DNA of 23,179 nucleotides from an uncultured Ruminococcus sp. (GTDB lineage: Bacteria; Bacillota; Clostridia; Oscillospirales; Ruminococcaceae), in NCBI GenBank assembly GCA_947174965.1, contig CAMWKY010000003.1, positions 1-23,179 on the forward strand, written 5' to 3'. A program made the position numbers and the translations under genes. The notes beneath the pieces are model-generated. The model was not told where the DNA came from and did no database searches. It saw only the letters and a list, made by a program, of their open reading frames with translations. Positions 6,367-22,685 of this stretch are shown in pieces. Each line of letters begins with the position of its first letter. Position 1 is the stretch's first letter.

Positions 6367-7020
6367 TTATTCCCATAATACATCATCTATTTCATCAAAA
6401 CTGTAATCTCTGCCAAGTGATATATATTTATGCCCTTTGTATTTTTCAAGCTCAATGTTATACTCATCTTTTGTTATTTCAGTATCATTAAACTCAAATA
6501 TCGCCTGCTCCTTTACACGATAACTAAAATCATTATAAAATGTAGCAATCATATTTATTTCATTATTTTCAAGTTTGCAAAATATTTTATCTTCAATGCC
6601 TGCCCCTATATTATAATGCACAATCATACCATTATCCTCATAATATCCGATGTCACCGAATGCACCTATTCTGCCAAGATATATCAGTCCATTGTCATAT
6701 GTATATATACGGCAAGCGGCGGCATGACTTGCATTTTCCGATATTATAAGTTCAGGCATTCCATCAGTATTCAGGTCATATATGGAAAAAGCTGAATACT
6801 CTACAATATCATTACCAAAAAAATATTCGTCTGAGTTCATGAAATCAAGCAATACCTGTTTATAGGATTTCTGCCAGCTGTTAAGTTCGGAACTTAAATT
6901 TTCTGTTGTTGATTCTTCGACTGCAATTCCTGACCTTTCAGAAATTATTTCATTGCTGTTCACGTTGCTACACCCCATAAGCAGAAACGGCAGACATAAT
7001 ATCAATAAAAATTTCCTCAT
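6367..7020 (-). CDS. putative lipoprotein, single-domain paralogue of the gene upstream
   Basis: A 217-aa secreted lipoprotein with signal peptide MRKFLLILCLPFLLMGC; the lipobox LMGC puts the acylated Cys at 17. A short Ser/Thr/Glu spacer leads to one domain (about 47-215). It has SIYDLNTDGMPELIIS, a DxNxDGxxE calcium-loop-like motif of the FG-GAP/VCBS type, and HAAACRIYTYDNGLIYLGRIGAFGD. Over about 170 residues it aligns without gaps to residues about 545-715 of the 979-aa lipoprotein next door, at roughly 75% identity by my count. So this is a recent tandem paralogue that kept only the third domain. It lies 15 nt downstream of that gene and is probably co-transcribed. The substrate or partner is unknown; calcium-dependent surface binding is a guess. 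Confidence 0.85.
   Translation of the reverse strand: MRKFLLILCLPFLLMGCSNVNSNEIISERSGIAVEESTTENLSSELNSWQKSYKQVLLDFMNSDEYFFGNDIVEYSAFSIYDLNTDGMPELIISENASHAAACRIYTYDNGLIYLGRIGAFGDIGYYEDNGMIVHYNIGAGIEDKIFCKLENNEINMIATFYNDFSYRVKEQAIFEFNDTEITKDEYNIELEKYKGHKYISLGRDYSFDEIDDVLWE
6379..6892. repeat. segmental duplication, copy A (partner at 7825-8338)
   Basis: About 514 bp inside the 217-aa lipoprotein gene match 7825-8338 in the neighbouring 979-aa gene. The offset is constant at 1446 bp at both ends I checked, so no insertions or deletions have accumulated. Both copies are in the same orientation and reading frame. This looks like a duplicated domain-coding segment, and it makes deletion or gene conversion between the two genes possible. 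Confidence 0.85.
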
Positions 7021-7035
7021 AATATCCCCCTTTGC

Positions 7036-9975
7036 TTATGGTGTTACATCAGTCACACTGATTAACTTGCCATTATCATCATGAGTATGTTTTTCACGCT
7101 TTACAAGTGTTTCATTGCCATTGTCGTCATATTCGATATAGTCCATAAATATGCCCTTATCATTCCAATATCTTTTCTGCAATGAAACAGGAATCAATAC
7201 ATCTCCCGACCATTTATAAACGGTATCCTCCGCATCAACAGCACTTGATTTTGAGTGTACAGAAAGAGTTTTATCATCATTTATCTGCACATAGAAATAT
7301 AATTTATCAAGTTCAGACCAGTTTTCAAAATATTCTGTATCGGGATTGTAGCGGAAGTAGCGAAAACCAGCATTTGTTGCTCCCAGACGTTCTTCAACTG
7401 CTATATCATTGTAGCCGTCAAAATCATAGTCAACAAATCGCACTAAAGTTCTGGAATCCATATCAAGAATCCTGTTGTTGATTGTTACGTCAAGCGACTG
7501 ATAAAATTTACCGTCCAGATACATTTCAACTCCGCCCGATTCTGTAATCTTGTAAGAGAAGTTTTTTTCTTTATTTATAAGCGGAGTGAGTTCAGTGAGA
7601 ACATTTGTATTGTAGCAGTCGCCTGTAAATATATCAACAGCATACCAGCCTGTAGTTACACGACGGTCGTCGTAATCTTCATAACTGCGAAAAACATAAT
7701 ATGTTCTGTCGTCAAATTTCTGTCTTTTACAATATGAAATATGCCTGTTGTCTGATTCAGGAAGATTCAGCCACAACAGTTCAGATGCTCTGCTGATACT
7801 GATTATACGTGAATATTCAGTAAGTGCTGTATCTATCTCATCAAAACTGTAATCCCTGCCAAGTGATACATATTCAATACCACGATATTCTGCAAGTTTC
7901 GCATTGTACTCATCTTTTGTTATTTCAGTATCATTAAGCTTGAAAGTTGCCTTTTCTTCACCATAATATCCCACATCATTATAAAATTTAGCAATCATAT
8001 TTATCTGATTGCTTTCAAGCCGATTGAATATTTCATATTCAATGCCCTGTCCTATATTATAATGCAAAATTGTACCGTTATCCTCGTAATATCCGACATC
8101 ACCGTATGCACCTATTCTTCCAAGATATATCAGTCCGTTGTCATACGTATATATACGGCAGGCGGCGGCATGACTTGTATCTTCCGATATTATGAGTTCG
8201 GGTGTTCCGTCTGTATTCAGGTCATATATTGAAAAAGCTGAATGTTCTATAATTTTATTTCCCGTAAAATATTCGTCGGAGTCCATGAAATCAAAGAGTG
8301 CCTGTTTATATGCTTTCTGCCAGTCGTTTAATTCAGGTATATGCGGAATATCTATAGCATACAGATAATTACTTCCGACATCATCTTTTTCATGGGCATA
8401 TACATAAAGCTGATATTCAGATGCAAATTCCAGATTAAAGCTTGTGTAATCATTATCGGAACTGAATTTGTATTCAGCGGTTTTTGTATCATCATCAACG
8501 GAAAACAGCGTTATTACATACTCGCCGTTTTTATTTTTCTCCGAAAATACTGCTGCTGTTTTACCGTCCTGTGAAAATGCAACTTTCGGCAGACGCTGTT
8601 CTTCTGAAATATACTTTGAATCAACATCAGTAATTTCAAGCGTATCAAGATTAAGTCTTGAATACGAAAAATTCCTGCCCGAATAAACCCAGCCTTTATA
8701 GAGTATCAGGTAATTTCCTGCTATATACTGCGGATTGTATGGATAATTCATAGTATATTCCGTGTTATTTTCAATAATGAATTTTTCATCTGTTTCAAGA
8801 TTATAGATTCCACATTCAATAGTTGATTCTTCTGCAATAACACGGTACACAAAACGACTGTCGTCGATTTTGCATATAATATCCACACCAACAAACCCAT
8901 GATAATCATCATTACTGATAAGCACTTTATTTTCTCCCGAAAGAGCTTCAAGAATAATATTTCCGTCTTTTCCCTTGACTGTACCATGTTCCAGCATATC
9001 ATAGCTAAGCCCGACTATAAAATTTTTCGGGCGGTACTCCGTATTTTCGGGTACTGTAAGGTCGTAAAGTTTTATATTATCTGCAATTTCAACTACAGGC
9101 AGATTAATAACATACAGATAATTAAATTCGCTGTCGCCCTCTTTAAGTGCATAGACATACAGCTTATTATCAGAAACAAATTGCAAATCAAAGTTTATAT
9201 ACTTATTTTCTGAACTGAATTTGTATTCTTCGGTTACTTTTTCATTTTCAAGTGAAAACAAAGTTACATCATATTCAGGGTTTACACTGTAATCTGCCGA
9301 TATATTTGCAGTCATTTTCATATCGGACGAAAAAGCTATGCAGGGAAGATAACGTTTATTTTCAATAAAATCCGTATCAATATCAGTGAGTTCAAATGTT
9401 TTGAGATTAAGCTTTGAGTAACCATAAAAGTCAGCAATAAAGCCCCTTGTGAGTATCAGATAATCGCCCGAGACTTTCTGCGGAAAATAGTGGCATCTTT
9501 TTTCACTTTCAATGCGGAAATCTTCATTGTTGAAAAGATTATAAACTCCGCAACCAAGACTTGAATCTTCCTGAATTATATTATAAGCAAAGCGATTGTC
9601 GTCAATTATACAACTGATGACAACATAGACAGTCTCACTTTCAACAGGAAGTTCAATCAATGCAGTACGCTCACCCGAAAGATTTTCAAGATAAATATTT
9701 CCATTTTCTTCTAAAATTTTTCTCCCTGACATTTCGTATTCATTGCCATAGGAAAATTCTTTGTGATTTTGCAGATACTCTTTATTTTCGGAAAAAGTAA
9801 GGTCATATAGTTTTATATTATCCGCAATTTCAGTTATGGGAAGTTTTTTTTCTGATTCTGTAGGCGTTTCGGTTTGTGATTCTGTTGTACTTTCGGGAAT
9901 ACTATTTTCAATGTTTTTTTCATTACAGCCCGTAAGCAGAAATACCAAACATAATATAAGTAAAAATTTTTTCAT
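7036..9975 (-). CDS. large multidomain lipoprotein with internal duplication
   Basis: A 979-aa predicted lipoprotein: signal peptide with lipobox LTGC (Cys17), Ser/Thr/Glu/Pro spacer (18-46). Two tandem domains follow, each starting EIADNIKLYDLT and offset by 247 residues (about 48-294 and 295-541). Each holds matched blocks such as CGxYNL, YLILxxG, SxLNLxTxExTD and KLYVYA/QLYVYA. They read as beta-rich, perhaps propeller-like, sensor or binding domains. Residues about 545-715 are the DxNxDG domain shared with the smaller lipoprotein downstream. The C-terminal part (to 979) has DYDFDGYNDIAV, another FG-GAP/VCBS-like loop. AGAGGAGA precedes the ATG and only 34 nt separate it from miaB, so it is probably transcribed from the miaB promoter. 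Function unknown. Confidence 0.87.
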   Translation of the reverse strand: MKKFLLILCLVFLLTGCNEKNIENSIPESTTESQTETPTESEKKLPITEIADNIKLYDLTFSENKEYLQNHKEFSYGNEYEMSGRKILEENGNIYLENLSGERTALIELPVESETVYVVISCIIDDNRFAYNIIQEDSSLGCGVYNLFNNEDFRIESEKRCHYFPQKVSGDYLILTRGFIADFYGYSKLNLKTFELTDIDTDFIENKRYLPCIAFSSDMKMTANISADYSVNPEYDVTLFSLENEKVTEEYKFSSENKYINFDLQFVSDNKLYVYALKEGDSEFNYLYVINLPVVEIADNIKLYDLTVPENTEYRPKNFIVGLSYDMLEHGTVKGKDGNIILEALSGENKVLISNDDYHGFVGVDIICKIDDSRFVYRVIAEESTIECGIYNLETDEKFIIENNTEYTMNYPYNPQYIAGNYLILYKGWVYSGRNFSYSRLNLDTLEITDVDSKYISEEQRLPKVAFSQDGKTAAVFSEKNKNGEYVITLFSVDDDTKTAEYKFSSDNDYTSFNLEFASEYQLYVYAHEKDDVGSNYLYAIDIPHIPELNDWQKAYKQALFDFMDSDEYFTGNKIIEHSAFSIYDLNTDGTPELIISEDTSHAAACRIYTYDNGLIYLGRIGAYGDVGYYEDNGTILHYNIGQGIEYEIFNRLESNQINMIAKFYNDVGYYGEEKATFKLNDTEITKDEYNAKLAEYRGIEYVSLGRDYSFDEIDTALTEYSRIISISRASELLWLNLPESDNRHISYCKRQKFDDRTYYVFRSYEDYDDRRVTTGWYAVDIFTGDCYNTNVLTELTPLINKEKNFSYKITESGGVEMYLDGKFYQSLDVTINNRILDMDSRTLVRFVDYDFDGYNDIAVEERLGATNAGFRYFRYNPDTEYFENWSELDKLYFYVQINDDKTLSVHSKSSAVDAEDTVYKWSGDVLIPVSLQKRYWNDKGIFMDYIEYDDNGNETLVKREKHTHDDNGKLISVTDVTP
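7825..8338. repeat. segmental duplication, copy B (partner at 6379-6892)
   Basis: Second copy of the duplicated domain segment, coding for residues about 545-715 of the 979-aa lipoprotein. It has many synonymous and some missense differences from copy A but no gaps, for example the shared stretch encoding SHAAACRIYTYDNGLIYLG. Confidence 0.85.
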
Positions 9976-11628: not shown

Positions 11629-11823
11629 ATGATACGAATAAACGGCGAAAAAGTCAATGCAGACGGAAAAAATATATCAGCGATTCTTGCTGATATGGGA
11701 TATTCTGAAAAGCGTGTAGCTGTTGAACTCAATGAACATATTGTGCCTAAAGTAAAATATGATGAAACAGTTGTCTGTGACGGTGATAATCTGGAATTTG
11801 TGCATTTTGTCGGGGGTGGCTGA
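11629..11823 (+). CDS. thiS: sulfur carrier protein ThiS
   Basis: A 64-aa ubiquitin-fold sulfur carrier. ThiF adenylates its C-terminal Gly, which then becomes a thiocarboxylate that gives sulfur to ThiG for the thiazole ring. It starts MIRINGEKV, has the usual VAVELNEHIVPK and DNLEFVHFVGGG, and ends in the required glycines (the GGG end is also familiar from Bacillus ThiS). SD GAGGAGG is 8 nt before ATG. It is the first gene after the riboswitch, and thiF starts 1 nt after its stop codon. Confidence 0.96.
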   Translation: MIRINGEKVNADGKNISAILADMGYSEKRVAVELNEHIVPKVKYDETVVCDGDNLEFVHFVGGG

Positions 11824-11824
11824 T

Positions 11825-12463
11825 ATGAGTATACCAACAAAAGAGGAAATATATAATACACTTGCTGAACGTCACGGAGCAGAATTGCAGAAAAGACTGT
11901 CTGAATCATCTGTTGCAGTATGCGGAATCGGCGGACTTGGCTCAAATATTGCAATATCACTTGCAAGAGCAGGAGTGGGAAAAATTCATATAATTGATTT
12001 TGATAAAGTCGATATATCAAACATAAACCGACAGCAGTATTTTATGGAACAGATTGGACAATACAAAACAGATGCTTTATATGATACGCTAAAAAAAATA
12101 TCTCTATACTGCAATGTGCAGACAGATTGTATAAGACTTATGGAAAGCAATATTCCTGATATTCTGAAAGATGATGACATTATCTGCGAATCGTTTGATG
12201 ATGCGGATTCAAAGGCAGAACTTGTAAACTGCGTGCTTGAGAAGATGCCCGAAAAATACATTGTATCAGCTTCGGGAATGGCAGGACTGTACTCTGCAAA
12301 TGCGATAAAAACACGCCGTATTACAGATAAATTCTATATCTGCGGAGACGGTAAAAGCGACGTTGCGGACGGTATGGGACTTGTTTCGTCTCGTGTAATG
12401 GTTTGTGCAGGACATCAGGCACACATGATAATTAAAATTATAAACAAAGATTTTGAAGTTTAG
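11825..12463 (+). CDS. thiF: ThiS adenylyltransferase ThiF (short clostridial type)
   Basis: An E1-like adenylyltransferase that activates the C-terminus of ThiS with ATP. The Rossmann nucleotide site is VCGIGGLGSNIAISLARAGVG (about 31-51), then IIDFDKVDISNINRQQY with the conserved Arg and Asp. It is 212 aa long and lacks the CxxC zinc pairs of E. coli ThiF, which matches the shorter family-2 ThiF of clostridia. The frame is open upstream to 11759 inside thiS, but ATG 11825, with a GGGGGTGG site overlapping the thiS end, gives the family N-terminus (MSIPTKEE). Tightly coupled to thiS and thiG. Confidence 0.95.
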   Translation: MSIPTKEEIYNTLAERHGAELQKRLSESSVAVCGIGGLGSNIAISLARAGVGKIHIIDFDKVDISNINRQQYFMEQIGQYKTDALYDTLKKISLYCNVQTDCIRLMESNIPDILKDDDIICESFDDADSKAELVNCVLEKMPEKYIVSASGMAGLYSANAIKTRRITDKFYICGDGKSDVADGMGLVSSRVMVCAGHQAHMIIKIINKDFEV

Positions 12464-12475
12464 GAGATGCTGAAA

Positions 12476-13243
12476 ATGAATGATAAACTTATTTTAGGCG
12501 GACATGAATTTAACTCACGTTTTATTCTTGGTTCAGGAAAATATTCACTCAAACTTATTGAAGCGGCTGTCAGATATGCAGGTGCAGAGATAATAACACT
12601 TGCTGTACGCCGTGCAAATACGGCAGAAAGTGAGAATATACTTGACTATATTCCAGACGGCGTGACACTGTTGCCGAATACGTCGGGGGCAAGAAATGCA
12701 GATGAAGCGGTAAGAATAGCACGTCTTGCCCGTGAACTTGGTTGCGGAGAGTTTGTCAAGATTGAGATTATGAGAGACACAAAGTACCTTCTTCCTGATA
12801 ATGCAGAAACTGTAAAAGCTACAGAGATTCTTGCAAAAGAGGGATTTGTTGTAATGCCGTATATGTACCCTGATTTGAATGCAGCAAGAGACCTTGTTAA
12901 TGCTGGTGCAGCATCAGTAATGCCGCTTGCATCTCCAATCGGCTCAAATAAAGGACTTTCAACAAAGGATTTCATACAGATTCTTATTGATGAAATTGAT
13001 TTGCCGATTATTGTTGATGCAGGTATAGGCAGACCGTCACAGGCTTGTGAAGCTATGGAAATGGGTGCGGCGGCTGTAATGTCAAATACCGCACTTGCAA
13101 CAGCAGGTGATTTGCCTGCTATGGCAGAAGCGTTCAGACAAGCAGTTGAAGCAGGCAGAAAAGCATATTTATCAGGTTTAGGACGTGTTCTCACTCGTGG
13201 CGCATCTCCGTCTGATAGTCTTACAGGTTTTCTACATGATTGA
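12476..13243 (+). CDS. thiG: thiazole synthase ThiG
   Basis: A TIM-barrel enzyme that forms the thiazole phosphate carboxylate from deoxyxylulose 5-phosphate, ThiS thiocarboxylate and dehydroglycine. Visible are the Schiff-base Lys in FVKIEIM (K95, with E97 two residues on), [18 protein letters not shown] (D181) and the phosphate-binding [10 protein letters not shown]. Length 255 aa is typical. An ATG also occurs at 12467, but it directly abuts the AGGAG (12462-12466); the ATG at 12476, 9 nt from that site, is the likely start (MNDKLILGG). The ribosome site overlaps the thiF stop codon. Confidence 0.97.
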
Positions 13244-13254
13244 GGGTGAATAAT

Positions 13255-13638
13255 ATGGAACTTAAATGTAAGGACTGTGAAAAATATATGCCTACAGCAG
13301 AAAAAAGTCATGGTGTTTGCAGTATGCCAGCAAGCTATTTTCCGACCAAAGCAGAAGATGACTGCCGTTATATTTCTTTTGAGGAATTAAAGTGCAAGGA
13401 TTGCTCACGTTTCGGCAATGATTTCGCTTGTTTTACGGTTGATGAAAATGACAGTGCAGAAGATTGTATTGGCTTTATTGATATTCAGGGACAAAATATT
13501 TACAATGCTTTATGGGACTGGTTTAAAAGAGGTATTTACAGCCGTGAAAAAGTAATGGAGCTTTGCGACGAGTTTGAGCAGTTAGAGGAATACAGATTTT
13601 TCAAAAGTATGAATAAGGAGAGTGATTCAGGTGAATAA
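13255..13638 (+). CDS. small protein with two four-cysteine sites inside the thiamine operon
   Basis: A 127-aa soluble protein between thiG and thiH; SD GAGGGTGA, ATG at 13255 (an upstream TTG at 13240 lies before the SD and is unlikely). Eight cysteines form two similar halves: C5, C8, C22, C37 and C47, C50, C59, C71. Both halves start ELKCKDC, and between them lies a short acidic stretch. This 4+4 pattern in a short protein recalls the HiPIP-like iron-sulfur small subunits of glycyl radical decarboxylases, notably that of 4-hydroxyphenylacetate decarboxylase. Two [4Fe-4S] or zinc sites are thus plausible. The remaining part (about 75-127) is helical and acidic (ALWDWFKRGIYSREKVMELC). Its end overlaps the thiH start by 8 nt. 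A job as electron donor or assembly partner for ThiH or ThiC is inference. Confidence 0.85.
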   Translation: MELKCKDCEKYMPTAEKSHGVCSMPASYFPTKAEDDCRYISFEELKCKDCSRFGNDFACFTVDENDSAEDCIGFIDIQGQNIYNALWDWFKRGIYSREKVMELCDEFEQLEEYRFFKSMNKESDSGE

Positions 13639-14884
13639 CAATTATTTTGTTGATTCAGGCAAGCTTTCTGAATCAGCACTTAAACGCAAGCACGAACTTG
13701 AAACAAATCCATCTGTACGCACAAATCATATGGAATATATGAATGGTATGGAGAAAATCAGTTCTGATATTTATGATAAGGTTATATCTCAGATGCAGGA
13801 ATACGACTATAATAAATATACTGTTTCAGATGTGAGACGTGCATTGGCGCATGATACCTGTACAGTTGAGGACTTCAAAGCACTTTTATCACCTGTTGCT
13901 GAACCGTTTCTTGAGGAAATGGCAGAGAAAGCACGTCTTGAAACACAGAAGCATTTCGGAAATACAGTTTATCTTTTCACACCGCTTTATATTGCGAATT
14001 ATTGTGAGAATTACTGTGTATATTGCGGATTCAACTGCTATAATGATATTCGCCGTATGAAGCTTACAATGGAACAGATTGAACATGAAATGCAGATAAT
14101 CGCACAAAGCGGAATGGAGGAAATACTTATTCTGACTGGTGAAAGCCGTGCAAAATCGGGTGTTGAGTATATCGGAGAAGCGTGTAAACTTGCAAGAAAG
14201 TATTTTCGCCTTGTGGGTATTGAGATTTACCCTGTCAACACTGATGAATACAAATATCTGCATAAATGTGGTGTTGATTATGTTACAGTATTTCAGGAAA
14301 CATACGACAGTGAACGCTATGAACAGTTGCATTTATTAGGACATAAGAGAGTATTTCCGTATAGATTTGAAGCGCAGGAACGTGCATTAATGGGCGGTAT
14401 GCGTGGAATAGCGTGTTCTGCATTGTTAGGCTTGTCGGATTTCAGGAAAGATGCTTTAGCAAGTGCCTTGCACGTGTATTATCTGCAAAGAAAATATCCA
14501 CACGCTGAAATATCGCTGTCATGTCCACGCCTGCGACCGATTATAAACAATGATGAAATAAATCCGCTTGATGTTCACGAAAAACAGCTTTGCCAGATAC
14601 TTTGTGCATACAGAATATTTTTGCCGTTCTGCAATATTACTGTATCATCAAGAGAAAGTGAGAGTTTCCGCAATGGCATTGTAAAGATATGTGCAACAAA
14701 AGTATCAGCAGGAGTTTCAACAGGTATAGGCGACCATGAAAGCAAGTATACAGGAAAGGAGAATGATTCAGCAGAGGGTGATGAACAGTTTGAGATAAAC
14801 GATAGCAGAAGCCTTGATAAGATGTACAGCGATATGTCCGACGAGGGCTTACAGCCTGTGCTGAATGATTATTTGTATGTTTAA
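13631..14884 (+). CDS. thiH: 2-iminoacetate synthase ThiH (radical SAM tyrosine lyase)
   Basis: ThiH cleaves tyrosine with S-adenosylmethionine into p-cresol and dehydroglycine (2-iminoacetate), the ThiG substrate in anaerobes that lack ThiO. The cluster motif NYCENYCVYCGF gives C125, C129, C132, the CX3CX2C of radical SAM enzymes, preceded by TPLYIANYC. The C-terminal BATS-like region contains ISLSCPRLRPI and SAGVSTGIGDHE. At 417 aa the length is that of the family. I prefer the GTG at 13631, 10 nt after AAGGAG (13615-13620); the GTG at 13622 is only 1 nt from it. The start overlaps the end of the Cys-rich gene. Confidence 0.95.
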   Translation: MNNNYFVDSGKLSESALKRKHELETNPSVRTNHMEYMNGMEKISSDIYDKVISQMQEYDYNKYTVSDVRRALAHDTCTVEDFKALLSPVAEPFLEEMAEKARLETQKHFGNTVYLFTPLYIANYCENYCVYCGFNCYNDIRRMKLTMEQIEHEMQIIAQSGMEEILILTGESRAKSGVEYIGEACKLARKYFRLVGIEIYPVNTDEYKYLHKCGVDYVTVFQETYDSERYEQLHLLGHKRVFPYRFEAQERALMGGMRGIACSALLGLSDFRKDALASALHVYYLQRKYPHAEISLSCPRLRPIINNDEINPLDVHEKQLCQILCAYRIFLPFCNITVSSRESESFRNGIVKICATKVSAGVSTGIGDHESKYTGKENDSAEGDEQFEINDSRSLDKMYSDMSDEGLQPVLNDYLYV

Positions 14885-15476
14885 GATTATTTGTGTAACC
14901 GACAGAAAGTCCTGCAAAGAGGATTTTCTTACAAGAATTGAAAAAATAGCGTCCGCAAAACCCGACAGAATAATATTCCGTGACAAAGATTGCAGTGGTA
15001 AGAAGTATACGGAATTTGCCTTTAAAGTACTTGACATAAGCAATAAATATAACGTACCATGCAGTATGTATTTTCACCCTGATTTTACAGGTGATACGCA
15101 TATGACAATGCCTATGTTACAACATTTTCCTTTGAGTGAAATGAATTATCTCAGGCTCATAGGTGTGTCGGTTCATTCGGTGGAGGAAGCAAAGGAAGCG
15201 GAAAGCAAGGGAGCGGATTACGTTACGGCAGGTCATATTTTTGCTACACAGTGCAAGCCTGATTTAGCTCCACGTGGACTTGATTTTCTGCGTAAAGTCT
15301 GCGAAAGCGTGAAAATACCTGTTTACGCAATCGGCGGAATCAATCCGCAGAATATATCACAGATTGCACAGGCAGGTGCGGACGGTGCTTGCATAATGAG
15401 TGAATTTATGACTTGTGAAAATCCTGCTGAATATATAAAAGATTTAAGGAAAGGAGCTGAATTGAATGAATCTTAA
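14877..15476 (+). CDS. tenI: TenI-type thiazole tautomerase
   Basis: A ThiE-fold protein closest to TenI, which isomerises the thiazole carboxylate made by ThiG to the aromatic form. The TenI hallmark GHIFATQCKPDLAPRGLDFL (near 120-140) and SVHSVEEA are present, as is AIGGINPQNISQIAQAGADG. It lacks the DGVHLG and ND signatures needed for thiamine phosphate synthase activity, and the neighbouring ThiED protein has these. The start is uncertain: ATG 14877 (MFKIICVTDR, 199 aa) looks like the family, while ATG 14865 adds four residues; neither has a good ribosome site. Both overlap thiH, so translational coupling is likely. The thiED start lies inside its 3' end. Confidence 0.9.
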   Translation: MFKIICVTDRKSCKEDFLTRIEKIASAKPDRIIFRDKDCSGKKYTEFAFKVLDISNKYNVPCSMYFHPDFTGDTHMTMPMLQHFPLSEMNYLRLIGVSVHSVEEAKEAESKGADYVTAGHIFATQCKPDLAPRGLDFLRKVCESVKIPVYAIGGINPQNISQIAQAGADGACIMSEFMTCENPAEYIKDLRKGAELNES

Positions 15477-16947
15477 TCCTGGTGAGCTTAATCTGTATGC
15501 CATAACGGACAGAGAGTGCCTGAAAGGTAAAGACATGAAGTTGCAGATTGAACTTGCAATACAAGGCGGAGCAACTATAATACAACTCCGTGAAAAGAAT
15601 ATCACTACAGAAGAACTTGCTAAAATCGCAGGAGAACTTGTCCCGATATGCCATAAGCACGGAGTAAAACTCATAGTAAATGACGACTGGAAAGCGGCAA
15701 GATTAAGTGGTGCGGACGGTGTACACGTCGGACTGGAAGATACATCAGTAGCGGAAATACGTGCAAATACTGATACAGCTTTTATTGTAGGTGCAACCGC
15801 AAAAACAGTGGAGCAGGCACAGAAAGCTGCAAAACAGGGTGCAAGCTATATCGGTGTAGGAGCAGTTTTTCCGTCTCCGACAAAGAAAAACGCTGTAAGA
15901 ATTACTCCTGATGAACTCCGTGAGATATGCAGGAGCGTCAGTATTCCTGCCGTAGCAATCGGCGGAATCACCAAAGAAAACGTGTGGGAACTGCGTGGGT
16001 GCGGAAACAGAGGTATTGCAGTAGTATCGGCGGTTTTCGGTGCAGACAATCCGTATACAGCAACAAAGGAACTTGCTGAAACGTGGCAAAAGGTATACCA
16101 CACACGCACAGCACTTACTATAGCAGGAAGTGACTGTTCAGGCGGAGCAGGTATACAGGCAGATATTAAGACAATGCAGGCACACGGAGTATATGCAATG
16201 AGTGCAATAACTGCACTTACCGCACAGAATACAACAGGTATAACAGGTATATATGAAGTACCGCCTGAATTTGTTGCACAGCAGATTGACATGGTTTTCA
16301 GCGATATACGTCCCGACGCTGTAAAAATCGGCATGATTTCAGGTGCTGAAACAGCAGAAGTGATTGCCGACAGACTGAAATACTGGAAAGCTGAAAATAT
16401 AGTTGTTGACCCTGTTGCAGTTGCGACAAGTGGTGCGGATTTGAGCAGTAAATCAGCTTATGAGGCAGTAAAAGAACTGCTATTCCCGATTTCGACACTT
16501 GTAACACCTAATATTCCCGAAGCTGAACTGATAACAGGTGTAAAAATCAACGATTTGAAAAATATGTATGAATCGGCGAAAGTTATTGCTGAAAAGTACG
16601 GCTGTAATGTACTTTGCAAAGGCGGTCACCTTAAAGAAAGTGCAGACGACCTGCTTTACGGAAATAATGGGAAGTACCAATTTTTTGAGGGCAAAAAAAT
16701 TGATAGTCCAAATACTCACGGAACAGGCTGTACACTGTCAAGTGCAATAGCATCAAATTTTGCATTGGGTTATCCTTTGAATGCCTCGATTGGTAAGGCA
16801 AAACAGTTTATAAATGATTGTCTTGAATCGGGGTTGAATTTAGGTAAAGGAAATGGAATGCTTGACCATTATTTTAAAAATGAAAAGTATGTATCAATGG
16901 AAGCGGAGATATTTAAAAATATTATAAGAAAGAGGGCTGTTTTATGA
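15466..16947 (+). CDS. thiED: bifunctional thiamine-phosphate synthase / HMP(-P) kinase (ThiE-ThiD fusion)
   Basis: A 493-aa fusion. The N-terminal ThiE domain (about 8-212) has QLREK (R42, K44), VNDDW (N72, D73), DGVHVGLED (84-92), [10 protein letters not shown] and AIGGI; it joins thiazole phosphate to HMP pyrophosphate. The C-terminal ThiD domain (from A216, [18 protein letters not shown]) has VVDPV (D315), TPNIPEAE and the anion-hole motif HGTGCT (C422), and phosphorylates HMP and HMP-P. Joining the two consecutive steps may channel HMP-PP. The order ThiE-ThiD is the reverse of the ThiD-ThiE fusions I know best. AAGGAG is 9 nt before ATG; it overlaps tenI by 11 nt and thiC by 4 nt (ATGA). 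Confidence 0.95.
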
Positions 16948-18257
16948 GAGAATACGCAACACAAATGGAGGCGGCAAAAAAAGGTATTATTACACCTGAA
17001 ATGAAGATTGTCGCACAGAAAGAATATATCAGCGAACAGGAATTGTGTGGACTTGTTGCAAAAGGTGAAGTATGTATACCATGCAATATCAATCACAAGT
17101 CAATTTCACCGGAGGGAATCGGCACAAAGATGCGTACTAAGATTAATGTAAATCTTGGTATTTCAGGAGACTGCAACAACTATGACAATGAGATGAAAAA
17201 AGTTGATATGGCTATAAAGTACGGTGCAGAAGCTATCATGGATTTGAGTAACTACGGCAAGACAAATACTTTTCGTACACAGCTTATTGAAAAATCTCAC
17301 GCAATGATTGGTACAGTTCCTATGTATGATGCTATCGGTTATCTTGAAAAGGACTTGCTTGAAATTACAGCAGAAGATTTCCTGAAAGTTGTAAAGGCAC
17401 ACGCTGAAAATGGTGTTGACTTCATGACAATTCATGCAGGAATAAACAAGCGTACTATTGAAGCGTTTATGCGTGACAAACGTAAGATGAATATAGTATC
17501 TCGTGGCGGTTCACTTCTTTTTGCGTGGATTATGATGACTGGCAATGAAAATCCGTTTTATGAGTATTATGATGATGTACTTGATATACTCCGTGAATAT
17601 GATGTAACAATAAGTCTTGGTGACGCACTCCGTCCGGGCTGTATTGACGATTCAACAGATGCAGGACAGATTTGTGAACTTATTGAGCTGGGAGCATTGA
17701 CTGAAAGAGCGTGGGCGAAAGATGTGCAGGTAATGGTTGAAGGTCCTGGACATATGGCAATGAATGAGATTGAAGCCAATATGAAATTGCAGAAGCGTAT
17801 CTGTCATAATGCACCGTTTTATGTTCTTGGACCTCTTGTAACTGATATTGCACCGGGATATGACCATATCACATCAGCAATAGGCGGAGCAATTGCGGCG
17901 GCAAGCGGAGCAGATTTCCTTTGCTATGTTACACCTGCCGAACATCTTAGACTGCCTGATATTGATGACGTAAAAGAGGGTATTATGGCAAGTAAAATTG
18001 CAGCTCATGCGGCTGATATTGCAAATGGCGTACCTCATGCAACTGATGCTGATAATGCAATGGCAGAGGCAAGACACGAAGTTTACTGGGAAAAGATGTT
18101 CAGTATTGCAATTGACTCCGATAAAGCAAGGGCATATTTTGAGAGTACACCGCCGTCCGACCGCCATACCTGTTCAATGTGCGGAAAAATGTGTGCTGTT
18201 CGTACAACAAATAAGATTTTAAACGGTGAAAAGGTTGACTTCTGTACAGAAAAGTGA
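16944..18257 (+). CDS. thiC: phosphomethylpyrimidine synthase ThiC
   Basis: A radical SAM enzyme that rearranges aminoimidazole ribotide into HMP phosphate. Core motifs: [112 protein letters not shown]. The C-terminal cluster motif is CSMCGKMC (C410, C413, C417), a CX2CX3C form one residue shorter than in E. coli, which I believe is normal for the short ThiC of clostridia. At 437 aa it lacks the N-terminal domain of the long proteobacterial form. Last gene of the thi operon; no terminator follows, and a promoter for the next gene lies over its last codons. Confidence 0.97.
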
Positions 18258-18263: not shown

Positions 18264-18296
18264 ATGATTAATAAATCTGAATGGAGGTTATTAATC

Positions 18297-19697
18297 ATGA
18301 AGAAATTTATTTCAGCAGTATCAGCAGTGGCACTTCTTATATCTTCAATACCTGCAATGAATACTGTTTCACAGGTATCGGCAGAAGATGATGCCATAAA
18401 GATTATGTGCATAGGTGATTCAATCACGGACGGCTATACAAGTGAATATATCGGCTCATATCGTAAATTCATTTGCCATAATCTTATGACAATGGATTAT
18501 AATGTTGACATGGTAGGCGCAAAGGAAAGTGAATGGGCATCTTCATACACAGACGAGGAAACAGGTGAAACGTGGTCGTTTGACAACGATAATACGGGCT
18601 ACAGCGGATATGCCATTAAAGAGTATAGCGGACGTTCGGGCATATACGAAACGCTCATATCAACAGACTGTCTTGCAAAGACAAAGCCTGATATTGTTAC
18701 ATTGCAGATTGGAACGAATGATGTCATTGATAATCATGATATTGATACAGCAGGGGAGAGACTTGAAGTACTTGTTGACTACATTCTTGATAATATTCCG
18801 CAGGACGCAACACTTTTCATTTCTCCGATTCCTCCGCTTGACCCGAACAGAAGTGAAGTTTACGACTGGTTCAGCAATTACCGTCATTCTTCCGACTGGT
18901 CGGAGCAGTACAATGATGATATGGCTGCAATGAATGTTGAGATTTCACTCATGCAGTATAACACACAGGTTATGGCAGTTGCATCTAAAAAGAAGCAGGA
19001 GGGCAAGAATGTTGTATTTTCAGAAGCTGCATTTGAAATAACGGACGTAAAAACACAGCTTTTCGACGGTGTACACCCGAATAATGCAGGTTATAAGGCA
19101 ATGGGTGAAAAGTGGGTTGAAACTATTGACAAATATCTGACAGAAAAATCGTCTGCTGAATCCACAACAACATTTGCAATAACAGAGACTACAACTACAG
19201 AAACAGTTGCAACAACGCAGACAACTACTACAGAAACGGCTGCAACAACACAGACAACTACTACTGATTTTTTACTTATTCCGATAGTAACTACAACTAC
19301 AACAGAGGGCAACACTACATTCAATGTAGGCGACCTTGTAAAGCTTATACACTATGTTCTTGATTGTCCGATTGCATATGAAGAAGATGAGATTAAGAGA
19401 TATGACCTGAATAATGACGGCGGAATAGATGTTTTTGATGTTATTCTTATGAGAGATGCTGTTATTGGCAACGTTGAAAAACTTCTGGAAAAGCGTAAGG
19501 AACTTGGTGACGATAAATTTCTTGATTTGAGTGATGCCTGTCATATTGTGATTTATCCTGATGAATACTATGAAACAACTACAACAACTACTGCACCGAA
19601 AAAAGCAATAGCAAGTGAAATCGCAGAACTTGACAAACCCGACAGAACAGAAGAAAATATTATCATTGACTGGGAAAATAATAGTATATTGTCATAA
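18297..19697 (+). CDS. secreted CE3-like SGNH esterase with dockerin
   Basis: A 466-aa secreted enzyme. The signal peptide is cut after VSA (29). The SGNH hydrolase domain (about 33-280) has IMCIGDSITDGY (Ser42), GYSGYAI, the GTND block (139-142) and the Asp/His pair in DGVHPNN (D257, H260). The pattern is like carbohydrate esterase family 3, which removes acetyl groups from xylan. A Thr-rich linker (about 288-330) leads to a dockerin (about 335-397). Its second calcium loop is canonical (DLNNDGGIDVFD, from D370), but the first repeat (FNVGDLVKLIHYVLD) lacks the usual DxNxDG residues. About 70 residues follow, with a second Thr run. The dockerin implies attachment to a cohesin scaffold at the cell surface. 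ATG 18297 has GGAGG 9 nt upstream and gives the signal peptide; upstream in-frame codons are disregarded. Confidence 0.92.
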   Translation: MKKFISAVSAVALLISSIPAMNTVSQVSAEDDAIKIMCIGDSITDGYTSEYIGSYRKFICHNLMTMDYNVDMVGAKESEWASSYTDEETGETWSFDNDNTGYSGYAIKEYSGRSGIYETLISTDCLAKTKPDIVTLQIGTNDVIDNHDIDTAGERLEVLVDYILDNIPQDATLFISPIPPLDPNRSEVYDWFSNYRHSSDWSEQYNDDMAAMNVEISLMQYNTQVMAVASKKKQEGKNVVFSEAAFEITDVKTQLFDGVHPNNAGYKAMGEKWVETIDKYLTEKSSAESTTTFAITETTTTETVATTQTTTTETAATTQTTTTDFLLIPIVTTTTTEGNTTFNVGDLVKLIHYVLDCPIAYEEDEIKRYDLNNDGGIDVFDVILMRDAVIGNVEKLLEKRKELGDDKFLDLSDACHIVIYPDEYYETTTTTTAPKKAIASEIAELDKPDRTEENIIIDWENNSILS

Positions 19698-19702
19698 TTC
19701 AT

Positions 19703-19733
19703 TCAGCGGAGCAAAAAACTCCGCTGATTTTTT
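19703..19733 (+). terminator. intrinsic terminator after the esterase gene
   Basis: Nine-bp stem TCAGCGGAG/CTCCGCTGA with a CAAAAAA loop, followed by six T. It starts 5 nt after the stop codon and separates the esterase from the VTC cluster. Confidence 0.94.
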
Positions 19734-19773: not shown

Positions 19774-19806
19774 TTTAAGATTATTTTAAGATAACAGATT
19801 TATAAT
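19774..19806 (+). promoter_or_regulatory. activator-type promoter with TTTAAG-N5-TTTAAG direct repeat
   Basis: TTTAAG at 19774-19779 and again at 19785-19790, five bases apart (11-bp period), then exactly 10 bp to a perfect TATAAT (19801-19806). No -35 hexamer is found at the right distance. This is the arrangement established for CiaR-regulated promoters in Streptococcus and typical of OmpR-family response regulators that replace the -35. It lies about 40 bp in front of the VTC gene, on the far side of a terminator, so it should control the whole cluster. Which regulator binds it is unknown. Confidence 0.75.
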
Positions 19807-19847
19807 ATAGTCATAAAGTTAATTCACACCTGAAAGGAGTAAGATAC

Positions 19848-20636
19848 ATGGCTATAAATACATTTGCAAGAAAGGAAATAAAGTTTCTGCTTGACATGAA
19901 TCAGTATCATGAACTTATTGAAACTATAAGCGAATATATGAATCCTGATAAGTATTGCATAGGCGGTAAAGAGTATGGCATATATAATATTTACTATGAT
20001 ACTTCTGATGATTTTCTTATCCGTGAATCTCTTGCAAAACCTTATTACAAGGAAAAAATCCGCTTGAGAAGTTATTATTCGCCTGCTGAACCTGATGCAC
20101 CTGTTTTTCTTGAAATAAAGAAAAAAATCGGCGGTATCGTGACAAAACGACGTGTTTCAATGACGCTTGCGGAGAGTGACGAATATTTTGCAACACGTCA
20201 TAAACCTGAAATAAAGAAGTACATAACAGGACAGGTTTTCACAGAACTTGATGCTTTTCTCAATCATTACCCGATTATTCCGAAGCAGTATATCAGTTAT
20301 CAGCGTGAAGCTTTTTTCGGTAAGGATAACAAGGATTTCCGTCTGACATTTGACAGAAAGATTACTGAACGTCGTTACGATTTGCATTTGAGCAATGAAA
20401 GTTATGGCAACTATATAATCGGTGCAGACCAGAGACTTATGGAAGTCAAGGTAGGTGACTCAATGCCTGCATGGCTGGTGCAGAAACTTTCGGAACTTGG
20501 CATATACAAGACAAGTTTTTCAAAATACGGCAGAGCCTACGCAAATTTTGTTAAGGAGCAGGCAAACAAAAGCCATATTCAGATTTCAGGTATATCAATG
20601 GTAAACAATAAAATTTTAGTAAACAGGAGCGTATGA
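19848..20636 (+). CDS. VTC-domain protein (polyphosphate-polymerase-like tunnel enzyme)
   Basis: A 262-aa cytoplasmic protein of the VTC (PF09359-type) family. In yeast Vtc4 this tunnel domain polymerises ATP gamma-phosphate into polyphosphate. The basic and acidic tunnel residues appear in order: RKEIKF (R8, E10, K12), KIRLRSY (K70, R72, R74), FLEIKKK (E89, K91), KRR (100-102), YQREAF, FDRKI, LMEVKVGD (E199, K201) and SFSKYGRAY. It has no signal peptide and no SPX domain. AAAGGAG precedes the ATG. The DUF4956 membrane protein begins 3 nt after its stop. Polyphosphate synthesis is inferred from the fold; bacterial members are little studied and another polyanion substrate or a binding role is possible. 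Confidence 0.9.
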   Translation: MAINTFARKEIKFLLDMNQYHELIETISEYMNPDKYCIGGKEYGIYNIYYDTSDDFLIRESLAKPYYKEKIRLRSYYSPAEPDAPVFLEIKKKIGGIVTKRRVSMTLAESDEYFATRHKPEIKKYITGQVFTELDAFLNHYPIIPKQYISYQREAFFGKDNKDFRLTFDRKITERRYDLHLSNESYGNYIIGADQRLMEVKVGDSMPAWLVQKLSELGIYKTSFSKYGRAYANFVKEQANKSHIQISGISMVNNKILVNRSV

Positions 20637-20639
20637 TTT

Positions 20640-21389
20640 ATGTTAGCATTATTTGATTTTTTTGGAAATGTTTTAACCAAAGTAGACAACAGCACATCTG
20701 ATATTTTTTCAGGTTCGTCAACAACATTGATTCCAAATATATCGTTCAGCGAATTTGGAATATGTGTCGGTTCGGCACTTGTAATAGGCTTTTTAATCAG
20801 TCTTGTATACATATTCTGCCACAGAAAAGAGGGCTACTCACAAAGCTATGTGCTTACAATAATCATGCTCCCGACAATTGTATCACTTATTCTTTTGTTG
20901 ATTAACACAACAGCAGGTGCATTAAGTCTGGCAGGAGCATTTACACTTGTTCGATTCAGAAGTGCGGCAGGTGACCCGAAAGACATAGCATATATATTCT
21001 TTGCAATGGCATCAGGTGTTGCCTGCGGTATAGGCTATGTGGGATTTGCAGTAGTATTCTTTATCATTCTTGGAATTGTAATGATAGCACTTTCAGAAAT
21101 GAATTTCGGTGGCTGTAAGACAAATCACATGACATTGAAAATCACAATCCCCGAAAATCTTGATTATCAGGGAGTATTTGACCCTGTTCTTGCAAAATAT
21201 ACTACATTCAACAAGCTCCGCCGTGTAAAGACAACAAATTTCGGCACACTTTTTGAGCTGATTTATTCAGTTGATGTAAGAAATGACATAGACCAGAAAA
21301 AATTCATTGATGAACTTCGTGCATTAAATGGAAATATGACAATAAACCTTGTATTTTTCAAGTATGATGACAAGATTTATGAAAGCTGA
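20640..21389 (+). CDS. DUF4956-family membrane protein
   Basis: A 249-aa integral membrane protein. Likely helices are at 41-60, 70-90, 116-133 and 134-151, with a hydrophobic Gly/Ala-rich stretch at 92-104 that may be re-entrant. The striking motif is AGAFTLVRFRSAAGDPKD (98-115), with two Arg and an Asp/Lys at a membrane edge, which could contact an anionic polymer. Residues about 160-249 form a soluble, probably cytoplasmic alpha/beta domain (HMTLKITIPENLDY...). AGGAG lies 10 nt upstream of ATG, and it is coupled to the VTC gene. From memory, VTC and DUF4956 genes often occur together. A channel or anchor role for the VTC partner is inference. Confidence 0.88.
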   Translation: MLALFDFFGNVLTKVDNSTSDIFSGSSTTLIPNISFSEFGICVGSALVIGFLISLVYIFCHRKEGYSQSYVLTIIMLPTIVSLILLLINTTAGALSLAGAFTLVRFRSAAGDPKDIAYIFFAMASGVACGIGYVGFAVVFFIILGIVMIALSEMNFGGCKTNHMTLKITIPENLDYQGVFDPVLAKYTTFNKLRRVKTTNFGTLFELIYSVDVRNDIDQKKFIDELRALNGNMTINLVFFKYDDKIYES

Positions 21390-21402
21390 TATATAAAAAA
21401 AT

Positions 21403-21430
21403 TCTCTCTCTGTTTATAAATGGAGAGAGA
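21403..21430 (+). other. stem-loop between the DUF4956 and lipoprotein genes
   Basis: Eight-bp perfect stem TCTCTCTC/GAGAGAGA (21403-21410 with 21423-21430) around a 12-nt AT-rich loop. Downstream on the plus strand is TATTATTATT, a poor U-tract. On the minus strand the same stem is followed by AATTTTTTTATAT, which would make a better terminator. On the coding strand it may act as a partial terminator or an RNA stability/processing element lowering or separating expression of the third gene. Confidence 0.55.
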
Positions 21431-21458
21431 TATTATTATTGACAGGGGTGATTTTATT

Positions 21459-22685
21459 ATGAGTTACAAAAGAATTATTGTTGCAGTCATGTCAATGCTT
21501 ATGCTGACAGCCTGCGGAGAAAATACAGAATCTGAAATATCATCAGAGCCGATTGTTACAGAGAGTACAACAGAAAAAGTTGAAACTACAATAACAACTG
21601 AAACTACTGAAACTACCAGAAAATCGACTACAGTTGAATCAACAGAAAAAGCGACAACTTCAACTACAGCCGAAAAAACAACTACAGTTAAAAAAACAAT
21701 TGAAAACAATAAAACAACTACAGCTGAAAAAGTGTCAGTAACAACTAAAACTGCTGAAACTACTGAAAAGGTTACAGAGGTGACAACAGAGGCAGTTACA
21801 GAGGAAGCAAGCAAATATGATGCTGAATTTAATCTTGCTGAAACTCCGTATGTTGAGATAACAAAAGGCGGAGATTATATAGTGAGAGGTTATACGGCAG
21901 ACGGACAAATATACATAAATACACAATCAGAAGAAAAAGTTGAGCTGACCCTTGATGGCGTGGATATTTCATGCCAGTCAAGTTCTGCAATACTTGTAAA
22001 TCAGGCTAAACGCTGTATAATAAAGCTTGCTGAAGGAAGTACAAACTATCTACGTGACGGCGGAAATGACAAGGTAAATGACGGTGTGATTTTTTCAAAT
22101 GATACATTGCGATTAAAAGGCAAAGGTTCTCTTGAAATAAATTCAGGCAATGCTCATGGTATAGCAAGTGATGATGATGTTATAATTGAAAGCGGAACAT
22201 ATATAATAAATGCTGTAAAAACAGGAATAACAGCCCATGATGATATAACAATCAACGGCGGAGACTTACAGATTTCAGGAGGTACTAACGGTATAAAATC
22301 AAAGGGAACTGTAAATATAAACGGCGGAAATATGTATATATCGGGCGGAGAAAAAGAGGAAAAAAGCTCAATTTATGCTTCTGTTTCATTCAGCTATACT
22401 GGCGGAAAAGTTTTCGCATACGGAAATCAGGTTACACCGCCCGCATTTACTCCGAATCCGTATATTGTTGTAAATTATGCCGACGGCATTTCAGCAGGAA
22501 ATACTATAGGTCTTGTACTTAACGGTGCAGAAAATGCTGTTCTTTATCCGCAGAAAAACTTGAAATGTATTCTTATGCTTGCTCCTGAAATATGTGTCAA
22601 TGATACTTTTACAGCGTATCTTAACGGAACAGCATCATCAGATTTTACAGTATCAGAGGGACAGAATATTTTCACAATAGAATAG
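21459..22685 (+). CDS. Thr-rich lipoprotein with Cthe_2159/DUF4353-type beta-helix domain
   Basis: A 408-aa lipoprotein: signal peptide with lipobox LTAC (Cys19), then a long Thr/Glu/Lys-rich spacer (about 28-120), probably a flexible or glycosylated stalk. The C-terminal domain (about 125-408) has turns such as GDYIVRGYTADGQIYI, VELTLDGVDI, NDGVIFSNDTLRLKGKGSLEI, NAHGIASDDDVIIESGTY and repeated NGGD/NGGN steps. These are the right-handed beta-helix repeats of the Cthe_2159 family, whose founding member was reported to bind cellulose and acidic sugars. ATG 21459 follows AGGGGTG by 8 nt and yields the lipoprotein signal; the in-frame ATG at 21420 lies in the hairpin and is rejected. It is the third gene after the VTC and DUF4956 genes, without its own clear promoter. 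Confidence 0.88.
   Translation: MSYKRIIVAVMSMLMLTACGENTESEISSEPIVTESTTEKVETTITTETTETTRKSTTVESTEKATTSTTAEKTTTVKKTIENNKTTTAEKVSVTTKTAETTEKVTEVTTEAVTEEASKYDAEFNLAETPYVEITKGGDYIVRGYTADGQIYINTQSEEKVELTLDGVDISCQSSSAILVNQAKRCIIKLAEGSTNYLRDGGNDKVNDGVIFSNDTLRLKGKGSLEINSGNAHGIASDDDVIIESGTYIINAVKTGITAHDDITINGGDLQISGGTNGIKSKGTVNINGGNMYISGGEKEEKSSIYASVSFSYTGGKVFAYGNQVTPPAFTPNPYIVVNYADGISAGNTIGLVLNGAENAVLYPQKNLKCILMLAPEICVNDTFTAYLNGTASSDFTVSEGQNIFTIE

Follow-up and report, generated by a model that had tools for sequence, protein, structure and literature searches.

The stretch of DNA analysed here, called the window, is an entire contig of 23,179 bases (CAMWKY010000003.1, or C3) from an uncultured gut Ruminococcus sp. 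whose genome assembly has 2.33 Mb in 371 contigs and is 83% complete. Near its end lies a three-gene unit encoding a VTC protein of the triphosphate tunnel kind, a DUF4956 membrane protein, and a Cthe_2159-family beta-helix lipoprotein, behind a promoter of the CiaR type. A first-pass annotation had called these three adjacent genes from the sequence alone, and each one scores over the curated Pfam cut-off of its family. VTC and DUF4956 are a near-obligate pair across genomes, the surface partner of the pair is swapped between Cthe_2159 and CotH, the tunnel residues of yeast Vtc4 are kept, DUF4956 has kinship to MgtC and to ACT domains, and a CiaR-like regulator is encoded in the same genome.

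We propose a mechanism to which, as a whole, we give about an even chance. A CiaR-type two-component system would switch on the operon with the VTC-DUF4956 core, and at the membrane the cytoplasmic Vtc4-like tunnel enzyme would polymerise the gamma-phosphate of ATP into polyphosphate. The MgtC-like DUF4956 protein would hold VTC at the membrane, gate it by way of the ACT-like domain, and let the chain reach the outside, where a surface protein, the Cthe_2159 beta-helix here and CotH elsewhere, would use or hold the product.

The VTC and DUF4956 pair

In a sample of 119 genomes of the family, VTC is found in 84 and DUF4956 in 84, with both in 83 (p = 2 × 10−27). At 101 of the 105 VTC hits there is a same-strand DUF4956 no more than 1.5 kb away, downstream in 100 and upstream in one. 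Among 129 genomes sampled over the phylum, the 15 with VTC are identical to the 15 with DUF4956, the window's genome included, the order being reversed in a few; DUF4956 adjoins 18 of the 19 VTC hits outside the window, and the 19th begins 150 bases into its contig. Of 14 control genomes, 3 have matches to VTC and those 3 also have the matches to DUF4956, namely Bacteroides ihuae, Corynebacterium glutamicum, and the archaeon Methanosarcina acetivorans. The gap between the 2 genes is +3 bases in the window and −8 nt at the median, and is at most 30 nt in 148 of 169 cases, with starts placed at the first possible codon so that overlaps are overstated. Over 84 loci the tree distances of the 2 proteins show a correlation of 0.92, to which shared descent contributes. 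To find VTC in sets of loci, a profile search took the place of a simple open reading frame (ORF) picker, which lost VTC in 10 of 100 loci. The first-pass annotation had staked its proposal on linkage across genomes and on tunnel residues alignable to Vtc4, and we find the linkage conserved and the residues present.

The window VTC protein matches PF09359 with E = 1.7 × 10−41 and 142.8 bits against a cut-off of 23, and it has the tunnel fold of Vtc4. A single-sequence search of the Protein Data Bank (PDB) gave solely spurious matches to ATP-synthase f. The profile of the VTC alignment gave 10 significant chains, all of them VTC (E up to 1.2 × 10−12), with the next match at 0.27. Vtc4 R264, R266, and E426, 3 residues whose change impairs Vtc4 (PMC9911596), correspond to R72, R74, and E199 in the window and do not vary in either of two sets of sequences (24 of 24, 57 of 57). 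Further tunnel matches, window first, are K12 to K200, K91 to K281, K100 to K294, R153 to R361, R165 to R373, K201 to K428, and K226 to K458. Both the restriction of significant PDB matches to VTC chains and the keeping of the 3 residues argue against the view that VTC, instead of polymerising, acts as a triphosphate-tunnel phosphatase or binds phosphate chains or nucleotides and signals through DUF4956, a reading we consider rather improbable. PPK1 is present in the same genome and in 64 of the 84 that have VTC, so it is not simply replaced by VTC; mutual exclusion of the two was looked for and rejected (p = 0.12).

The window DUF4956 protein matches PF16316 with E = 9.9 × 10−14 and has 5 helices (residues 36 to 153) followed by a C-terminal ACT-like domain (about 160 to 240). 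The conserved motif that the first-pass annotation had picked out in the membrane protein, FTLVRFRSAAGDPKD, is located at residues 101 to 115 (window about 20940-20984). Within it R107 is invariant in both a 24-member and a 68-member alignment, and R105 is invariant in the first and at least 90% conserved in the second. Aligned by hhalign to MgtC/SapB, DUF4956 scores a probability of 95.1 over 204 columns (alignment A1) and 79.1 with a narrower alignment (A4), with reversed controls at 0.1 and 2.6. The C-terminal part resembles ACT folds in PDB searches, which were filled by that part (159 to 247) and barely covered the membrane part. DUF4956 thus shares with MgtC/SapB a homologous membrane part and a C-terminal ACT-like domain, and differs in bearing its own motif, LVRFRSA. 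The curated Pfam cut-off for MgtC is not reached: 15 of the 24 DUF4956 members match that model at E up to 10, the best at 1.5 × 10−4, and the window protein is absent among the matches listed for the 24; 4 DUF4956 genes match the Pfam MgtC model, all under the cut-off. The earlier picture of a tunnel enzyme and a membrane protein as separate proteins is supported, but its likening of the membrane part to a yeast-type VTC channel is not. A Vtc1-type channel was considered for DUF4956 and is disfavoured, there being no VTC-complex chain among the PDB matches listed, which mostly concern the ACT-like part, and no DUF202 (PF02656, the Vtc1 family) found in this 83% complete genome; DUF202 is found in 1 of the 119 genomes of the family sample.

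Surface partners of the pair

The window lipoprotein matches PF14262 with E = 5.6 × 10−49 (167.2 bits, cut-off 25.8, profile positions 4 to 195 of 262) and the solved Cthe_2159 structure, PDB ID: 4peu_A, with E = 3.5 × 10−20. The surface lipoprotein on a Thr-rich stalk that had been annotated stands as to its family and its stalk, there being 37 Thr in a stretch of 116 residues after the lipobox. Its start does not stand, and is most likely at 21459 instead of 21420, because a ribosome-binding-site-like aggggtg precedes the ATG at 21459 and a lipobox, LTAC, follows. By a crude rule, a pattern like a lipobox is present in 74 of the 107 Cthe_2159 proteins that lie near VTC.

Within 6 kb of the 105 VTC loci there is Cthe_2159 alone at 46, CotH alone at 40, both at one, and neither at 18 (Fisher p = 9 × 10−14), so that 87 loci have one or the other. 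This exclusion is per VTC locus; an exclusion per genome was rejected, as 26 genomes hold both. In a VTC tree built with FastTree for 167 loci, the Cthe_2159 or CotH label, given to 133 rows, switches only 4 times. The 2 interchangeable surface partners predict a shared product that gets to the cell exterior, although export of a polymer to the lipoprotein is our inference. Gly/Arg-rich tails were considered as a polyanion-binding feature common to both partners and proved inconsistent.

A sample of named loci, taken as the best 80 of 588 with a mainly Cthe-type DUF4956 query and so biased to that class, has VTC in 78 (the remaining two begin inside the operon), Cthe_2159 within the stretch examined in 65, the order VTC-DUF4956-Cthe_2159 in 51, CotH in 7, and both a kinase and a regulator in 31. 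That order is seen in Ruminococcus, Paenibacillus, and Candidatus Galacturonibacter. Romboutsia and 4 of 6 named Clostridium species have Cthe_2159 nearby but separated from the pair, and the other 2 Clostridium lack it; Acetobacterium (L147, L148) has the pair without it. Two close Ruminococcus relatives (L116, L120) have VTC-DUF4956 and a CiaR box with no Cthe_2159 match in the stretch examined, for which loss, divergence, and replacement are alternatives. It might be asked whether the surface gene is a passenger, there by chance or operon hitchhiking. Cthe_2159 does occur away from VTC, with 50 of 99 typed rows lying within 6 kb of it, and is missing from the stretch examined at 15 of the 80 named loci, but 58 of the 60 genomes with a typed row have VTC (p = 5 × 10−11), no more than 100 nt separates it from DUF4956 at 71 of the 88 loci where both are on one strand, and Cthe_2159 genes placed apart sometimes share the CiaR box, which leaves the passenger explanation barely plausible.

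The Cthe_2159 family is described as binding cellulose or pectic acid (PMC6712302), and it is by analogy to these family data that the unit might take part in attachment to plant fibre. Cthe_2159 and CotH, the 2 alternative partners at the VTC loci, are both known as domains from anaerobic rumen fungi (PMC6712302). Dockerin-like motifs in 8 of 111 Cthe_2159 proteins of the loci (L020, L021, L032, L038, L130, L134, L140, and L141, of which L020 and L141 appear to be one and the same place) suggest a link of the VTC unit to cellulosomes in some relatives.

The CiaR-type promoter and its candidate regulator

CiaR is an envelope-stress regulator. Before the VTC gene there is a TTTAAG-N5-TTTAAG, the sole such repeat in the window at up to 1 mismatch, and position 19774, where the first-pass annotation began the cluster, is the first base of it. 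The site exactly matches the consensus NTTAAG-N5-TTTAAG (PMC3091779, PMC4938410) and the 10-nt distance from box to −10 (PMC3091779), which bears out the annotated activator-type promoter and suggests the CiaR type as its name. An exact repeat stands before VTC at 28 of 156 non-redundant loci where 0.1 is expected, and a repeat with up to 1 mismatch at 52 where 0.65 is expected, the expectations coming from random sequences that keep the dinucleotide composition; 48 of the 52 have TANNNT at 10 nt. By class, the boxes at up to 1 mismatch are found at 38 of 85 Cthe_2159 loci, 3 of 37 CotH loci, 10 of 32 with neither, and 1 of 2 with both.

When near-duplicates are included, 178 loci have 69 boxes in front of VTC and 49 at other places in 5.1 Mb of strand. 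Of the 49, 12 (11 loci) stand before separately placed Cthe_2159 genes and 6 (5 loci) before the regulator. Those 12 boxes are as co-regulation predicts, and the MgtC-like and ACT-like parts of DUF4956 are a regulatory architecture, so it has to be weighed whether the pair works inside the cell, making or sensing polyphosphate there, with DUF4956 only tethering and regulating VTC through the ACT-like domain and the surface protein merely co-regulated in an envelope response. Against this, PPK1 already covers the cytoplasmic pool in most VTC genomes, and Cthe_2159 and CotH are nearly exclusive per VTC locus. We take the intracellular reading seriously but find it unlikely.

There are 58 regulators within 6 kb of VTC, 45 of them with a CiaR-like helix by our own threshold of at least 7 of 13 identical residues, and a box before VTC accompanies 24 of the 45 versus 0 of the 13 others (p = 3 × 10−4). 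The window's genome encodes a CiaR-like regulator at C212:3184-3843 that is 62% identical to a VTC-linked one, and its recognition helix, NIEVYISFLRKKI, is identical to that of streptococcal CiaR, VVEVYVSKVRKKL, at 7 of 13 positions. A kinase gene adjoins it (L198 1-1491, minus strand). Between its membrane segments this kinase has a long Thr/Pro-rich outside region, similar in make-up to the lipoprotein stalk.

Perfect matches to the promoter in this genome number two, the window site and C29:7547-7579. Repeat plus −10 at up to 1 mismatch gives 3 sites, versus 5 for a reversed control pattern, and because of this single genome-wide sites mean little alone. The C29 site heads a candidate small RNA with no ORF, an intrinsic terminator at its end, and a UCCUCC, partly paired, that is the complement of ribosome-binding sites. 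The CiaR-dependent small RNAs of streptococci measure 87 to 151 nt and have such complements (PMC8186281), and by analogy the candidate is in line with a CiaR-type regulon in this genome. Rfam gave no match at its place, and its pairing with the VTC operon is no better than background. Its strongest pairing is with the thiC start (−32.5 against a mean of −14.2, sd 4.3), which we do not claim as a target, as the terminator arm may supply much of it.

Known systems, genome setting, and meaning

Compared with the yeast VTC complex (Vtc4/Vtc3/Vtc1), the unit has a Vtc4-type tunnel domain with matching residues and a genetic tie to a membrane subunit. It differs in that Pfam found neither the SPX nor the membrane domain of Vtc4 in the 262-residue protein, where VTC is the sole family over cut-off, in that its membrane subunit resembles MgtC and has an ACT-like domain in place of the DUF202/Vtc1 family, and in having a surface partner. 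A cotH-PPP-DUF4956 module has been published beside Gram-positive pel loci (PMC7112168), and such pel accessory genes, including Streptococcus intermedius SIR_1594-1592 (PMC12345266), likewise have a VTC and DUF4956 core by an outside protein; the window unit differs by its Cthe_2159 partner and CiaR-type promoter, and neither CotH nor PelF was found in its 83% complete genome. The CotH arrangement is reportedly not found outside pel (PMC12345266); in our family sample only 2 of the 41 VTC loci with CotH within 6 kb have PelF within 4 kb, although contigs may be cut. Clostridium perfringens NELoc-2 (PMC2879425) has 2 VTC genes, each followed by a membrane protein of 222 to 226 residues and then CotH, but there the VTC neighbours are annotated as tubulin/FtsZ, and their DUF4956 identity is presumed from size and place. 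The streptococcal CiaRH regulon (PMC3091779) has the same repeat, 5-nt gap, and 10-nt −10 spacing, whereas the host here is no streptococcus and the predicted target is the VTC operon. No paper joining Cthe_2159 to VTC or DUF4956, or CiaR to VTC, was found in our searches of the openly licensed PMC literature. The VTC/DUF4956 module is known, the variant with a Cthe_2159 partner and CiaR-type control is new, and the unit is real, conserved, and regulated.

Several points weigh against the proposed synthesis and export. At 104 of the 156 non-redundant VTC loci there is no box at 1 mismatch, and the CiaR-like regulator of this genome sits on another contig than the operon. The 18 VTC loci with neither partner, some of them on short contigs, and the 15 named loci with no Cthe_2159 in the stretch examined, which include the 2 Ruminococcus relatives, also count here. 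Of 22 positions invariant in the bacterial VTC alignment, 4 differ in Vtc4 (E10 is T198, D34 is L222, K70 is A262, and K93 is H283). We found no report in the openly licensed PMC literature of a bacterial VTC making polymer, and MgtC proteins are not known as channels. In S. intermedius, a mutant lacking VTC (SIR_1593) still aggregated, with no Pel change reported; in a mutant lacking DUF4956 (SIR_1592), aggregation in one medium fell by over half and Pel was raised; and a deletion of CotH had an effect (PMC12345266). This pattern argues against a simple pipeline in that setting.

Table 1. Features of the three-gene unit, its upstream border, and the candidate small RNA (window positions unless another contig is named)
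Feature	Position	Strand	Remarks
CiaR-type promoter	19774..19806	+	TTTAAG (19774-19779), N5, TTTAAG (19785-19790), N10, −10 TATAAT (19801-19806)
VTC (triphosphate tunnel) protein, 262 aa	19848..20636	+	PF09359
DUF4956 membrane protein, 249 aa	20640..21389	+	PF16316; distant MgtC/SapB relative
Hairpin, 12 pairs	21403..21430	+	between DUF4956 and lipoprotein genes; fold z −3.7, terminator-like
Cthe_2159-family beta-helix lipoprotein with Thr-rich stalk	21459..22685	+	Pfam 5.6 × 10−49; ORF opens 21420
SGNH/GDSL hydrolase gene	18264-19697	+	Thr-rich linkers; weak dockerin match 0.028, under cut-off
Terminator-like site 3' of SGNH hydrolase gene	19703-19727	+	upstream border of three-gene unit
Candidate small RNA	C29 about 7465-7579 (L196 about 1419-1533)	minus on L196	perfect CiaR promoter, ~80 nt

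The hairpin between the second and third genes is a possible partial terminator or processing site that might reduce a portion of the transcript or make it more stable. Where the nearest protein relatives have a source name, it is mostly Ruminococcus, and several are R. flavefaciens. A transglutaminase on C29 has a dockerin over the cut-off (6.7 × 10−7), and with the weak dockerin of the SGNH hydrolase the organism is therefore probably cellulosomal. Upstream runs a series of thiamine genes (11759-18257, plus strand), with ThiC named by Pfam and ThiF-like, ThiG, ThiH, and 2 ThiE-like genes, one fused to a ThiD-like domain, named by eye. A pair of lipoprotein-like ORFs (6367-9975, minus strand) share, by eye, well over 100 residues in nearly duplicated form, and the Pfam search found no family over cut-off in them.

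One further elaboration we regard as distinctly improbable: the pair would export polyphosphate as a phosphate-chain currency outside the cell, CotH kinases would use polyphosphate and not ATP, Cthe_2159 would hold the polymer through bound calcium, and the whole would be an envelope-stress polymer under CiaR. If that were true, MgtC-like proteins would be conduits or gates for phosphate chains. What the analysis gives is that 2 orphan families, bacterial VTC and DUF4956, become one testable unit, that its promoter and candidate regulator indicate when it is used, and that DUF4956 gains a kinship to MgtC which may bear on the unsettled function of MgtC itself.

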